Source: Terriglobus albidus (GTDB taxonomy: Bacteria; Acidobacteriota; Terriglobia; Terriglobales; Acidobacteriaceae). From it: a DNA stretch of 64,000 nucleotides. Both the position numbers and the translations under genes were made by a program. Positions 16,434-29,135 of this stretch are shown in pieces (position 1 is the first letter of the stretch; every line of letters starts with the position of its first letter). Under the pieces are notes generated by a model. That model made no database searches. It was not told where the DNA came from and worked only from the letters and a program-made list of their open reading frames with translations. The stretch covers positions 868,001 through 932,000 of the forward strand of contig NZ_CP042806.1 of the NCBI RefSeq assembly GCF_008000815.1, given 5' to 3'.

Positions 16434-16510
16434 TGGTGCACCCGAGAAGATTCGAACTTCTGACCTACAGCTTCGGAGGCTGCCGCTCTATCCAGCTGAG
16501 CTACGGGTGC
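16434..16510 (-). tRNA. tRNA-Arg (anticodon CCG)
   Basis: The minus strand folds into a full cloverleaf. The acceptor stem is GCACCCG / CGGGTGC, the D-arm GCTC...GAGC, the anticodon stem GCAGC / GCTGT with loop CTCCGAA (anticodon CCG, reading CGG), and the T-arm AGAAG-TTCGAAT-CTTCT. Discriminator A and an encoded CCA end complete the 77 nt. Confidence 0.96.
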
Positions 16511-25591: not shown

Positions 25592-26062
25592 TCAGATCAG
25601 GCCGATGGCGCGTCCGGCGACACCAACCCCCAGCCACAATGAAAGCGAGACCACCGCAGTGATGCGGGAGGCCAGGGTCGCGGCGCTGCCCAGGGTAAGA
25701 ACGACCCGGCGGTAGAGCGTGAAGTAGAAGAGGACGGCTGCGGCGAGCAGGGCCATCTTCCAGCGGAAGGCGGCGTTGTAGTAGCACTTCAAGGCCTCTT
25801 CCGAGACCAGGGCGACGCCGGTCAGCACCAGGATCGCCAGGCTGCTGAGCAGGATGCGGCTGAGATCGCGGTTCAGCATGCGTGGAGATTCGCGCCGCAG
25901 AATCAGGCCAAGCAGGCGAAGATCCAGAACGAGGACGGAGCCTCCGAGCAGCGTAAGTGCCAGCAGGTGAATGGCTTCCACTGCCGCGAAGCCCCAGCGC
26001 GAGTTCTGCATGAACTGGCCGAGCGAAGAATGAGCGAGAGCGACAAACCAGAGGCGAAGCAT
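25592..26062 (-). CDS. DUF6644-like membrane protein (paralogue 2)
   Basis: A 156-aa integral membrane protein with four hydrophobic segments. Core motifs VEAIHLLALTLLGGSVLVLD, written as 20 residues, and DLRLLGL, RWKMALL, LYRRVV parallel those of the neighbour at 26074-26571, so the two are tandem paralogues. The start is the ATG at 26062 with AAAGG upstream, 11 bases after the stop of the previous gene. I match it to DUF6644 from memory of the family. The function is unknown; heme or quinone contacts are conceivable given the His in VEAIH, but unproven. It is the third gene of the DUF6152 operon. Confidence 0.75.
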   Translation of the reverse strand: MLRLWFVALAHSSLGQFMQNSRWGFAAVEAIHLLALTLLGGSVLVLDLRLLGLILRRESPRMLNRDLSRILLSSLAILVLTGVALVSEEALKCYYNAAFRWKMALLAAAVLFYFTLYRRVVLTLGSAATLASRITAVVSLSLWLGVGVAGRAIGLI

Positions 26063-26073
26063 TGGCGAGCCTT

Positions 26074-26571
26074 TCAGAAATAGGCAATCGCCCGGCCGGC
26101 GACGATGATGCCGCACCAGAGCGTGAGGGAAGCAAATGCGGCGGCGCGCGCACGCCAGGGTGAGAAGCGAGCCGTCTCCCATTCCTGCACGCGGCGATAG
26201 ACCGTCGTGTGAAAGATCAATGGGTTCAGGCCTACCAGCGCGAGCAATACGAGCTTGATGCGGAAGGCGGGGTTCGTATAGTTCTTTGCCGCCTCTGCCC
26301 AGAAGAGCAAGAGGCCGCTGACAAACATCACGCCGAAGCCGGACCACGTGAGTGGAAAGACGGCACGCGCGATGCGCGTGACTGAGACATCGCGCAACAC
26401 GACGCCAAGCATACGCAGGTCGAGTATGGCGATGGTGCCGACCAGCAACGCAATGGCGAGCACGTGGACGGACTCGATGATGGAGAACAGGTACTCTGAC
26501 TCGCGGATCGAGGTTCCGATCTGCGAGTCATAGATGACCTGACAGATGTGCTGCAGCAGAGGCATAGCCAT
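26074..26571 (-). CDS. DUF6644-like membrane protein (paralogue 1)
   Basis: A 165-aa membrane protein with about four TM helices. It shares with its tandem copy the pattern SVHVLAIALLVGTIAILDLR (20 residues), then FRIKLVLL and HTTVYRRV and a final VAGRAIAYF. The N-terminal ~20 residues are amphipathic and likely cytoplasmic or interfacial. It starts 5 bases after the DUF6152 stop, so the three genes form one operon. The two paralogues may form a heterodimer, which is inference. Confidence 0.75.
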   Translation of the reverse strand: MAMPLLQHICQVIYDSQIGTSIRESEYLFSIIESVHVLAIALLVGTIAILDLRMLGVVLRDVSVTRIARAVFPLTWSGFGVMFVSGLLLFWAEAAKNYTNPAFRIKLVLLALVGLNPLIFHTTVYRRVQEWETARFSPWRARAAAFASLTLWCGIIVAGRAIAYF

Positions 26572-26576
26572 CCGAG

Positions 26577-27026
26577 TTACTTCGCCGGCTTCACGGTGTT
26601 GGGCAGAGCTCCCTGGACTGAGCCGTCATCGCCGGGGCCGCCGTCACCGGGCGTTCCACCGTAGATGCTGCGTCCGTCGGGCAGCGTCACGCGGCGTGCG
26701 TCGATGAGATGCGAACCATCCTTGGCGCGATAGCCATCCACGACGATGGTGTCACCGACCTTCAGATCGCCTTTCTTGAAGCCGCGGCGGCTGAGTGCAC
26801 CTGGGCCGGCGCCTTCGCAACCCCAGTTGGTGACAGCGCCTTTCGCGTCGGTGATGTCGACGTAGAAGTACGAGTGCGGATTGGTCCACTCGACACGAGT
26901 GAGCTTGCCGACCAGGCGAACGGGCTTGTTGCCGTCGAACTCGGCGGAGAAGGAGTGATGGGCGTACGCACTGGCGGATGCGAGCGCCAATGCACCAAGA
27001 GACGAGAGAAGCAATCTGCTCTTCAT
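26577..27026 (-). CDS. DUF6152 family exported protein
   Basis: A 149-aa protein. A signal peptide (1-22, SAYA) is followed by the DUF6152 core: AHHSFSAEFD directly after the cleavage site, VEWTNPHSYFYVD (about 49-61), KVGDTIVVDGYRAKDGS and a Gly-rich tail. The adjacent His-His after cleavage could be a metal ligand. It is predicted periplasmic. It is the first gene of the operon with two DUF6644 membrane proteins, 40 bases after a terminator hairpin and about 150 bases after a polycysteine leader ORF (27179-27229). Ribosome binding site: AGGAAAG. Confidence 0.82.
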   Translation of the reverse strand: MKSRLLLSSLGALALASASAYAHHSFSAEFDGNKPVRLVGKLTRVEWTNPHSYFYVDITDAKGAVTNWGCEGAGPGALSRRGFKKGDLKVGDTIVVDGYRAKDGSHLIDARRVTLPDGRSIYGGTPGDGGPGDDGSVQGALPNTVKPAK

Positions 27027-27064
27027 GGTGTCTTTCCTGTGTTGTTGGGATGTCGCTTAAAACG

Positions 27065-27093
27065 AAAAACCCGCTTCCGAAAGGAACGGGCTT
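27065..27093 (-). terminator. Terminator/attenuator in the DUF6152 leader
   Basis: Read on the minus strand, CCCG-TTCC / GGAA-G-CGGG (8 bp, one bulge, TTTC loop, extra AA/TT pairs) is followed by TTTTT. It lies between the leader ORF at 27179-27229 and the DUF6152 ATG at 27026, with no other gene between. As a leader terminator it can only make sense as an attenuator or as a stop for a short RNA. Confidence 0.65.
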
Positions 27094-27178
27094 CTAAACC
27101 TTGCGATGTGAGGAGATGCCGGAATTACAGTGAATTCCGCATATTCCTTGCGCGCCGATGCGTGCGTCGCCCGTCCAT

Positions 27179-27229
27179 TTAGCGATGGAGGGAGCAACAA
27201 CAAGCAAGCATGGCGCGGAGCGGATGCAT
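27179..27229 (-). CDS. Polycysteine leader peptide upstream of DUF6152
   Basis: A 16-codon ORF reading MHPLRAMLACCCSLHR, with an internal ATG that could give the last 10 residues alone. Three Cys codons are consecutive (TGT TGT TGC). The first ATG lies 6 bases after the -10 box TAGAGT, so transcription would start at or next to the ATG and the ORF may be translated leaderless. Polycysteine leader ORFs of this type act as cysteine-responsive attenuators in mycobacteria. Here the following gene codes for DUF6152, with a terminator between. The matching ORF on the other strand makes chance unlikely. Confidence 0.7.
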   Translation of the reverse strand: MHPLRAMLACCCSLHR

Positions 27230-27235
27230 AGCTGC

Positions 27236-27264
27236 ACTCTAAGTTGAGGCCGACATGGTGTCAA
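27236..27264 (-). promoter_or_regulatory. Promoter of the DUF6152-DUF6644 operon
   Basis: On the minus strand a perfect -35 TTGACA (27259-27264), a 17-base spacer and -10 TAGAGT (27236-27241, 4 of 6 matches). The predicted start site falls on the ATG of the leader ORF. Confidence 0.65.
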
Positions 27265-27601
27265 GCATAGGGTGTGCCATCAGGCTCGCCATATGGGAGT
27301 AGGCAAATTTCGAAATTCGAATCCTGGGTGCCCCATCCATCGCGACAGAGCTGGGTAGGATATTCGAGCGAAGCTCGAATCTGGTGGGAGCCGTGGGCTT
27401 TTAGCCCACGGTGTATTGGGTAGGAGAAATTGGGCTTTAGCCCTGGGTTGTTTCAGAAAACAGAGGCAAAGGCCCAGGGCTTAAAGCCCGGTCGTTTTAT
27501 GCCTTCCAATCAGCGGGCTGAAGCCCGCTGCTCCCACCGATTACGCCCCTTAAGAACTTCTACCTCTTCCGTACAGCCGGTTTGATGACACACCCTCGGG
27601 C
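27265..27601. repeat. Space between the two divergent promoters: D-repeat and composite repeat copy 2
   Basis: No gene is seen. A D-repeat with ATTCGAGCGAAGCTCGAAT lies at about 27327-27380. Composite repeat copy 2 (27383-27538) is intact here, with the uninterrupted hairpin GTGGGCTTTTAGCCCAC, which shows what copy 1 looked like before insertion. Confidence 0.7.
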
Positions 27602-27630
27602 TTGACGCGTGAGAGGATTTGCTCTACGGT
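27602..27630 (+). promoter_or_regulatory. Promoter of the 299-aa protein / cytochrome-like operon
   Basis: TTGACG (27602-27607, 5 of 6), a 17-base spacer and TACGGT (27625-27630, 3 of 6). The leader ORF ATG at 27637 begins 6 bases later, the same distance as on the opposite strand. Confidence 0.55.
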
Positions 27631-27636
27631 TTGCAC

Positions 27637-27690
27637 ATGTTCAGCCGCCGATCGCTCGAACTAACGCTTTGTTGTTGCGCCTGTCGCTAG
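27637..27690 (+). CDS. Polycysteine leader peptide upstream of the 299-aa secreted protein
   Basis: A 17-codon ORF reading MFSRRSLELTLCCCACR, with four Cys in five codons near the end (TGT TGT TGC GCC TGT). It starts 6 bases after the -10 box of the plus-strand promoter, probably at the transcription start, and ends 140 bases before the ATG of the next gene. It mirrors the minus-strand leader in position, size and Cys run. No clear terminator follows on this side; regulation could instead act through RNA folding or Rho. Confidence 0.7.
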   Translation: MFSRRSLELTLCCCACR

Positions 27691-27830: not shown

Positions 27831-28730
27831 ATGAAAGCTATCTTGCGCTTAAGTGCAGCCCTGTCTCTGGTGGCGTGCCTCTCCGGCACTGCCGGCCTGT
27901 GGGCTCAACAGAAAAAAGAGAAGGCTCTGGACGTCACCGGCCGTGAGAACTCTCCGTTTTCGCGCAATGAAGCGGACCTGCCGAAAGGGCCGGCGCCGCG
28001 ACTGAATGGCCATCCGGATCTTTCGGGCTACTGGATTCCGTCGAAGAAAGACAAGCCCACGGGAAATCTTGGAAAAGACTATCCGGGATACAAGCTTCCC
28101 TTTACGCCTGCCGGGGAAGCTGCGCTGAAGTACAACCTGGAACACACGGTTGATCCGGAAGCGGTGTGCATCGTGGGAGGTCTGCCGCGGCACAATGCAA
28201 GTGGGCTTCCCTTTCAGTTGTTGCAGGGAGCGGACCATGCTGTCTTTCTCTACTGGTACACGACCTATCGTCTGGTTCCTTTTGATGGCCGCAAACATGC
28301 GGAGGATCCCGATCCGTCGTTCTTCGGTGAGGAGATCGGATCCTGGGAGGGCGATACGTTTGTAGTCGACTCCAGCGCGTTCAAGGAGCAGAGAACGTGG
28401 GCGGATGAGAACGGCAATCCGCATAGCGATCAGCAGCATGTCGTGGAGCGCTGGACGCGGCCCGACATCGGTCATATCCACGTCGACATGACGGTGACGG
28501 ATCCGAAGTTCTACACCGAGCCGGTTCACTATCAGCGCACGTGGCTTCTGGGTAAGCCGGGCGATGAGGTGAAGGAGTACTCCTGCGCGGAAGATAACGT
28601 GGACGCGCCGCACCTTGGTCCGGGGCCTGGGCCGATTGGGCCGGATGGACAGCGTGGTTACGGAAAGCTGGCGCCGCTTCCTCCTCCGCCGGATAAGAAT
28701 CATCCGGCGGTTACCTCGATTCCTGATTAG
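27831..28730 (+). CDS. Secreted protein of unknown function with PDLSGYW and WEGDTFVVDSSAF motifs
   Basis: A 299-aa protein starting MKAILRLSAALSL with a signal peptide of about 27 residues (ending GLWAQ). It carries NGHPDLSGYW (about 61-70) and SWEGDTFVVDSSAFKEQRTW (20 residues, about 178-197), then HVVERWTRPDIGHIHVDMTV. This pattern marks a family of exported soil-bacterial proteins with no known activity, often seen near DUF6152 genes; that link is recalled knowledge. The C-terminus is Pro/Gly-rich. The start at 27831 is chosen because the ORF upstream lacks a signal peptide. It is cotranscribed with the cytochrome-like gene 15 bases downstream. Confidence 0.75.
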   Translation: MKAILRLSAALSLVACLSGTAGLWAQQKKEKALDVTGRENSPFSRNEADLPKGPAPRLNGHPDLSGYWIPSKKDKPTGNLGKDYPGYKLPFTPAGEAALKYNLEHTVDPEAVCIVGGLPRHNASGLPFQLLQGADHAVFLYWYTTYRLVPFDGRKHAEDPDPSFFGEEIGSWEGDTFVVDSSAFKEQRTWADENGNPHSDQQHVVERWTRPDIGHIHVDMTVTDPKFYTEPVHYQRTWLLGKPGDEVKEYSCAEDNVDAPHLGPGPGPIGPDGQRGYGKLAPLPPPPDKNHPAVTSIPD

Positions 28731-28745
28731 CACCGGAGGAACGCG

Positions 28746-29135
28746 ATGCGACGTCTACTGATGCTCACACTGATGGCGACCTCCACGTTGGGGGCTGCTG
28801 TAACAGCGGATAGGCTTACAGAGCTGCGTGCGCGTATGGATGCGCTGCAGGATATGCGTGACGATCTGCGTGATGCGCTGGATACGAAAGATGGCGCGAA
28901 GACCGCAGCGTTGAGCGGTGAGATTGTGCGGTTGCTGCAGCAGGATCAGGCGGTATGGAAGGAGCAGGGTTTCGACGACGTGCTCAAGATCAACCAGGGA
29001 ACGATTGAGCTGGCGGAGAAGATTGGTTCACAGGCAAAGAATGGGGAGACGCAGCATGCGTTGGAGAGTTATCTAGCGCTACAGAAGAGCTGCGCGTCGT
29101 GTCATGATCTGCATCCGGAGAAGCGAGTGCATTGA
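28746..29135 (+). CDS. Cytochrome c-like exported protein (single CxxCH)
   Basis: A 129-aa protein with a short signal peptide (1-20). A charged helical segment (DRLTELRARMDALQDMRDDL, 20 residues) and further helices follow, and near the C-terminus the heme-attachment motif CASCH in SCASCHDLHPEKRVH. A helical bundle with CxxCH close to the C-terminus resembles class II cytochromes c (c-prime or c556 type). It is predicted periplasmic and able to carry one heme, so it may supply electrons to, or take them from, the neighbouring unknown proteins. Confidence 0.75.
   Translation: MRRLLMLTLMATSTLGAAVTADRLTELRARMDALQDMRDDLRDALDTKDGAKTAALSGEIVRLLQQDQAVWKEQGFDDVLKINQGTIELAEKIGSQAKNGETQHALESYLALQKSCASCHDLHPEKRVH

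Follow-up and report, generated by a model that had tools for sequence, protein, structure and literature searches.

In the mycobacterial type of polycysteine leader, an RNA structure hides the ribosome-binding site (RBS) of the next gene unless a ribosome stalls. Polycysteine leaderless short open reading frames (ORFs) of mycobacteria are reportedly the subject of Canestrari et al., 2020, in Mol Microbiol. Such ORFs act in mycobacteria as cysteine-responsive attenuators (PMC9031893, PMC9094748, PMC13236596), leaders with Cys runs near the stop codon but without terminators are predicted upstream of cys/cbs operons in Actinobacteria (PMC1262725), and ribosome-mediated attenuation is proposed for the uORFC-8-2 motif located before cysS in Rhodobacterales (PMC8632094). 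A further report describes copper sensing by the nascent CutF and CruR peptides, in which an upstream ORF with Cys residues controls the next gene (PMC9973294), and in Acidobacteria 13.3% of genes on average were predicted to be leaderless in three genomes (PMC3160421). Here we analyze two short polycysteine ORFs on opposite strands of a 64,000-nucleotide stretch of Terriglobus albidus, positions 868001-932000 of its single-contig 6.4 Mb genome (hereafter the window), that precede two divergent operons of unknown function.

We consider it highly probable that these ORFs are cysteine-sensing leaders of the divergent operons, placed in one regulon with the organism's own cysD, sulfite reductase and redoxin genes and working by ribosome-mediated attenuation. 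Like the mycobacterial leaders, they are short, contain adjacent Cys codons, would lie at the 5' end of the transcript and belong to a set serving several operons, including cysteine and sulfur genes. Unlike those leaders, they occur in another phylum before genes of unknown function, and intrinsic terminators follow the DUF6152, sulfite reductase and own-genome redoxin leaders, whereas folding models of 10 plus-side homologues give no support to RBS sequestration. The minus-side terminators also set them apart from the actinobacterial cys leaders, with which they share a Cys-run leader. Tandem Cys codons and a U run after a terminator stem are shared with uORFC-8-2; that motif is confined to cysS and one order and uses mostly UGC, while here UGU is preferred, several sulfur and other operons carry leaders, and the first genes behind the window leaders encode a DUF6152 protein and a 299-amino-acid protein (p299) rather than CysS. 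Since leaderless polycysteine attenuators are already known in mycobacteria, the acidobacterial leaders vary a known theme. No report of such leaders in Acidobacteriota was found in the literature searched by title and abstract, and no paper on DUF6152 was found either, most subscription journals lying outside the coverage of these searches.

Anatomy and Conservation of the Leader Pair

An earlier reading of this DNA from sequence only had described, on each strand, a promoter followed after 6 nt by an ATG that opens a Cys-run ORF; all of these elements were confirmed (Table 1). Both strands share the pattern TTGAC-N18-TAnnnT-N6-ATG, leading into an ORF of 16 or 17 codons with three adjacent Cys codons. 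These read TGT TGT TGC in both leaders, and the plus leader has another TGT further on. The promoter geometry suggests that both leaders have a leaderless start.

Table 1. Positions of the two leaders, associated RNA elements and downstream genes, numbered within the window.
Feature	Position	Strand	Details
Promoter, minus side	27236..27264	-	TTGACA 27264-27259, 17 nt, TAGAGT 27241-27236
Minus polycysteine leader ORF MHPLRAMLACCCSLHR	27179..27229	-	ATG 27229, 6 nt past -10 box; stop at 27179
Candidate antiterminator strand TGGACGGGCG	27168..27177	-	complementary to terminator 5' arm; p=0.03 versus shuffles; weak
Intrinsic terminator GAAGCCCGTTCC..GGAAGCGGGTTTT with T-rich tail	27056..27094	-	between leader and DUF6152 gene; folding free energy (dG) -14.6, 0/25 shuffles
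DUF6152 protein (PF19649)	26577..27026	-	first gene after minus leader
DUF6644 protein (PF20349)	26074..26571	-	
Second DUF6644 protein	25592..26062	-	putative start ATG
Promoter, plus side	27602..27630	+	TTGACG 27602-27607, 17 nt, TACGGT 27625-27630
Plus polycysteine leader ORF MFSRRSLELTLCCCACR	27637..27690	+	ATG 27637, 6 nt past -10 box; stop ends 27690
p299, 299-aa protein	27831..28730	+	first gene after plus leader; putatively exported (by eye)
129-aa protein, one CxxCH motif	28746..29135	+	cytochrome c' match below cut-off

Both leaders recur in homologous divergent loci of 12 genomes besides the window, with contigs that had equal lengths counted as one: G128 (same contig as L048), G142 (same contig as L049), G095, G031, L047, L050 and L052 (Granulicella sp.), L051, L053 (Granulicella paludicola), L067 (Occallatibacter savannae), G478 and G460. 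We take the genera with leader-bearing loci to belong to the Terriglobales. The leader peptides have diverged strongly (e.g., MVAIPSLLCCCSSIRL, MFLLTASRCCRRSFPVEWTSTCVRL and MIPSQQARCCNTLSLSRCCAHLCR), with adjacent Cys codons in each. When 24 leaders were aligned (alignment A4; 20 from DUF6152/p299 pairs and 4 before other genes), Cys pairs were kept in all of them while other residues varied, and the spacing from the -10 box to the ATG was 6 or 7 nt in 24/24. The two ATGs of a pair lie 77-83 bp apart in 7/8 loci and 408 bp apart in the window, where an insert with palindromic repeats (27340-27540) between the promoters widens the usual gap of about 80 bp. The numerous copies of its repeats in an own-genome sample of 1.264 Mb (60 stretches of 20 kb plus the window), GGGCTTTAGCCC 18 times and GGGCTGAAGCCCGCTGCTCCCACC 12 times, make the insert look like a dispersed element of the repetitive extragenic palindrome (REP) kind.

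The sequence-only reading had proposed to compare the 5' regions of DUF6152 operons, and where leaders exist, they indeed keep their Cys codons and a distance of 6-7 nt from -10 box to ATG. However, among the best 80 of 545 DUF6152 relatives, p299 stands divergently beside DUF6152 in 34 loci, only 8 of which carry both leaders. The other 26, from other Acidobacteriota and from Proteobacteria, have neither, and the leaders are therefore a trait of one group of loci and not of DUF6152 operons generally. That is the group around Terriglobus, Granulicella and Occallatibacter. Leaders are likewise missing in front of DUF6152 in Terracidiphilus (L077) and Granulicella rosea (L110, L121). Outside the leader loci the homologue scan also returned rows that look like chance (L083, L088:4946, L091, L101, L103, L108, L121).

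Rarity of the Leader Pattern

The exact pattern (six-base first box, 17 nt, TANNNT, 6 nt, ATG) occurs four times in the 6.4 Mb genome and not at all in the reversed control. Two of the four matches are the window leaders, and at another (L003) the ORF has no Cys run. Under a looser rule, with TAnnnT followed after 5-8 nt by ATG or GTG and an ORF of 7-40 codons containing CCC, the two window leaders were the only ORFs in the own-genome sample; with WW in place of CCC there were 3, and looser runs of other residues gave 0 (His), 0 (Tyr), 1 (Met), 0 (Asn) and 1 (Phe). Requiring a promoter score of at least 8 and merely CC, 4/36 short ORFs passed: both leaders plus a pair of apparently accidental hits.

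Likewise, R1, a model built on promoter and leader sequence only, matched nothing in the own genome at E<=10 except the two window leaders, and it therefore misses the cysD, sulfite reductase and redoxin leaders described below. At E<=0.1 it gave 67 matches across 200 family genomes, spread over 43 of them, and many of the weak ones are possibly accidental. Twenty stretches were chosen around R1 matches and 18 contained a CC leader (L261 and L265 did not); some of these 18 (e.g., L253, L260 and the first of L263) appear chance-like or stand before genes of no clear reading.

Sister Leaders Before Sulfur Genes

Similar leaders precede recognizable sulfur genes of the same organism. The own-genome cysD has the leader (V)MRRVFTDRCCCLL, 6 nt past TAGAAT, and cysD leaders of relatives have Cys runs within other sequences. 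MQTAKNSCCCPVCCCV is the leader of the sulfite reductase (G000:C1:3265976; Pfam families of the query, NIR_SIR) and MSYYAIRACCCRCCCPQQAAVELRSGR that of a redoxin (G000:C1:3328075, minus strand). For the second own-genome homologues (reductase, 1264042; redoxin, 83395), no CCC leader was found where the upstream region was examined (L296).

To place these in context, upstream regions were compared across genomes for cysD (30 loci, from 70/297 genomes with a match), sulfite reductase (12/16 loci, leaving out the incomplete L277, the split L281 and the paralogues L282 and L283) and redoxin (14 loci). A CCC leader was present 40-420 nt upstream in 17/30, 6/12 and 11/14 loci, respectively. The corresponding antisense counts were 3, 0 and 2, dinucleotide shuffles gave a mean of 0.1 each, and control upstream regions (of ORFs of at least 300 aa, taken without gene calling, n=583) gave 5/583. 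Leaders with CC only were found in 21/30, 8/12 and 11/14 loci (shuffles 4.1, 1.4 and 1.4; controls 62/583), and when a -10 box was required as well, in 9/30, 6/12 and 11/14, with controls at 1/583. Some cysD leaders thus have no TAnnnT box 5-8 nt before the start.

Other genes behind such leaders in relatives encode CHRD proteins, a carbonic-anhydrase-like protein, an M19 dipeptidase and a PF03601 protein, which we take to be YeiH-like, a putative sulfate exporter. Another such leader stands before the gene of a protein resembling rhodanese (match below the Pfam cut-off), with a DUF6644/DUF6152 set about 3 kb further downstream. In addition, L249 (3792- and 4002+) and L263 (3587- and 3797+) carry Cys-run leaders in a further divergent pair, before redoxin and CHRD protein genes, which is built like the DUF6152/p299 pair.

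Cysteine Codon Choice

Fifty leaders, picked by their Cys runs and not by codon, contain 147 TGT and 62 TGC codons, whereas ORFs of at least 300 codons in the same loci contain 207 TGT and 664 TGC; the nominal p of ~1e-35 is too small, because leaders within one family are not independent. In the own-genome sample, TGT and TGC number 702 and 1773. The direction of the TGT excess in the leaders is strong. Such a preference between synonymous codons fits sensing by decoding and not by the peptide, and a constraint from RNA pairing could also contribute to it.

Terminators and a Model of Attenuation

Between the minus leader and the DUF6152 gene, a GC hairpin with a T-rich tail was found in 9/10 homologues tested (0/25 shuffles each); L047, almost a copy of the window, was not counted. 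In the tenth, L008, a strong hairpin is followed by a poor tail. The stem sequence changes between species and the pairing persists. For cysD (8), sulfite reductase (5) and redoxin (7), the loci tested were selected leader-bearing ones. All five sulfite reductase leaders tested (two of them near-identical), of the 6 with a CCC leader, are followed by a terminator. A locus of T. albidus (L048, 3850-3980) has an extra palindromic insert of ~110 bp between terminator and DUF6152 gene that the window lacks. By eye, the Cys codons pair with CAACAACA, which precedes the DUF6152 RBS, in the window and in its closest relatives; most homologues do not keep this pairing, and the candidate was dropped for that reason.

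With a leader ORF of control codons followed by an intrinsic terminator, the minus side is best read as classical ribosome-mediated transcription attenuation. Transcription would start at the ATG or within ~1 nt of it, so that the ribosome would engage the mRNA directly at its 5' end. With Cys-tRNA plentiful, the ribosome would pass the TGT-rich Cys run and reach the stop codon, the GC hairpin with its U-rich tail would form downstream, and transcription would end before DUF6152. With Cys-tRNA scarce, the ribosome may stall within the Cys run. A stretch of RNA immediately after the leader, which is suggestive of an antiterminator, could then bind the terminator's 5' arm and so allow transcription of the DUF6152 operon. 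On the plus side, the same sensor would act before p299 with no conserved terminator, through translational or Rho-dependent control, Rho being a guess. Because this kind of sensor is common to cysD and sulfite reductase, cysteine shortage is the likely signal, and the operons of unknown function would probably be switched on when cysteine is short.

Evidence Against the Model and Alternative Explanations

The anatomy of the leaders, their conservation and codon bias, the terminators and the membership shared with sulfur genes are direct observations. Several results nevertheless weigh against cysteine-sensing attenuation as set out here. Candidate antiterminator pairing beats shuffles (p<0.05) in 5/11 homologues, of which three are nearly the same sequence, and matched pairs show no clear advantage over mismatched ones. 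No CCC leader lies within 420 nt in 13/30 cysD loci (counted whether or not cysD is the first gene) or in 6/12 sulfite reductase loci, G095 and G031 among the latter, and the 26 leader-free DUF6152/p299 loci belong here as well. A cysteine-dioxygenase/rhodanese fusion (PF05995 + PF00581) follows a Cys-run leader in Granulicella and relatives (L052:209, L258:3227, L267:1147), and a cysteine-dioxygenase-like gene in this position is at odds with plain induction by lack of cysteine; it may have the opposite wiring or another role. Terminators also are unevenly distributed: clear ones (0/25 shuffles) follow just 2/7 redoxin leaders tested (own genome and G128), 2/8 cysD leaders (the own cysD leader lacking one) and 2/10 p299 leaders (the plus leader of the window lacking one). 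The cysD and p299 counts also favor control by translation only, on at least the plus side, in which a stalled ribosome would stop an RNA structure from hiding the next RBS and the minus-side hairpin would be incidental. This alternative uses the same cysteine sensor, overlaps with the attenuation model on the plus side, and has a precedent in the polycysteine layout of mycobacteria (PMC9031893, PMC9094748). We regard it as possible though rather unlikely, given the terminators behind nine of ten DUF6152 leaders and all tested sulfite reductase leaders. RBS sequestration on the plus side is itself unsupported, in that no consistent change appeared when 10 homologues were folded in each of three ribosome states; predicted openness of the Shine-Dalgarno region rises on stalling in 3/10 of them, and clearly in 2, which counts against translation-only control as it does against the model for that strand.

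The sequence-only reading had left the signal as cysteine or thiol/copper, and of these the cysteine part is borne out by the sulfur genes behind sister leaders, the TGT skew and the terminators, while the copper part is not. A nascent Cys-rich peptide that binds copper or another thiophilic metal and so stalls or releases the ribosome, as in CruR/CutF, would account for the adjacent Cys residues, and the invariant HHSF of DUF6152 could bind metal. A peptide-level sensor, though, provides no reason for the codon skew. CutF and CruR have a CxxxC and a proline-rich stall-like motif, and CutF also a signal sequence; inspected by eye, the window leaders have neither a proline-rich end nor a signal sequence, and just a formal CxxxC inside the CCCAC of the plus leader. 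Several sister-leader genes are sulfur genes, and no copper gene was recognized among the genes examined. Metal sensing is thus very unlikely, and the codon skew together with the sulfur genes led us to rule it out as the principal explanation. Equally to be weighed, as all evidence for cysteine sensing comes from sequence, is that the ORFs are untranslated and exist only as a by-product of motifs conserved in the promoter or DNA (TTGTTG), given that a Cys run yields the DNA motif TGTTGT. Length, stop codon and other residues vary, yet in-frame Cys pairs and the ATG position relative to the -10 box hold in every aligned leader. Moreover, the distance from ATG to Cys run shifts by whole codons, and Cys runs are common to cysD, sulfite reductase and redoxin leaders of different sequence; we consider the by-product explanation extremely improbable.

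Genes of the Two Operons

The DUF6152 protein is 97% identical to the copy of Terriglobus albidus DSM 26559. An invariant HHSF directly follows the putative signal sequence (by eye), and an NPH is also invariant; these could form a metal site at the mature N-terminus. Fold comparison predicted an OB fold for DUF6152 (best E 7.6e-4) and, weakly, a barrel like that of retinoid-binding proteins for p299 (best E 0.013), and names a function for neither. The p299 protein matches no Pfam or NCBIfam family and is a conserved neighbor of DUF6152; the 129-aa protein is probably encoded in the same operon. Membership in the regulon suggests a role of the DUF6152/p299 module in sulfur or thiol supply, or in thiol protection in the envelope. 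A scan of the window with Rfam 15 at gathering score gave no RNA family match at either leader; it matched a fluoride riboswitch (RF01734, 45189-45265, plus strand) and a tRNA gene (16437-16510, minus strand) elsewhere.

Implications

A broader proposal, to which we would give about even chances, is a cysteine regulon that spans the phylum Acidobacteriota and needs no regulator protein of its own. Its leaderless polycysteine ORFs would sense Cys-tRNA and, in contrast to those of mycobacteria, would often work via intrinsic terminators; in the Terriglobus/Granulicella group the regulon would have captured a largely exported module. This module would comprise the DUF6152 OB-fold protein, two DUF6644 proteins and the barrel protein p299, with redoxin and CHRD proteins elsewhere. 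If so, the captured module would be a hitherto unrecognized cell-envelope system for cysteine or sulfur shortage. The attenuation model itself would imply that ribosome-sensed cysteine control by leaderless ORFs is not specific to mycobacteria but also governs genes of sulfate and sulfite reduction in a large soil phylum, and it would give DUF6152, DUF6644 and the p299 family, which has no Pfam entry, their first physiological context.
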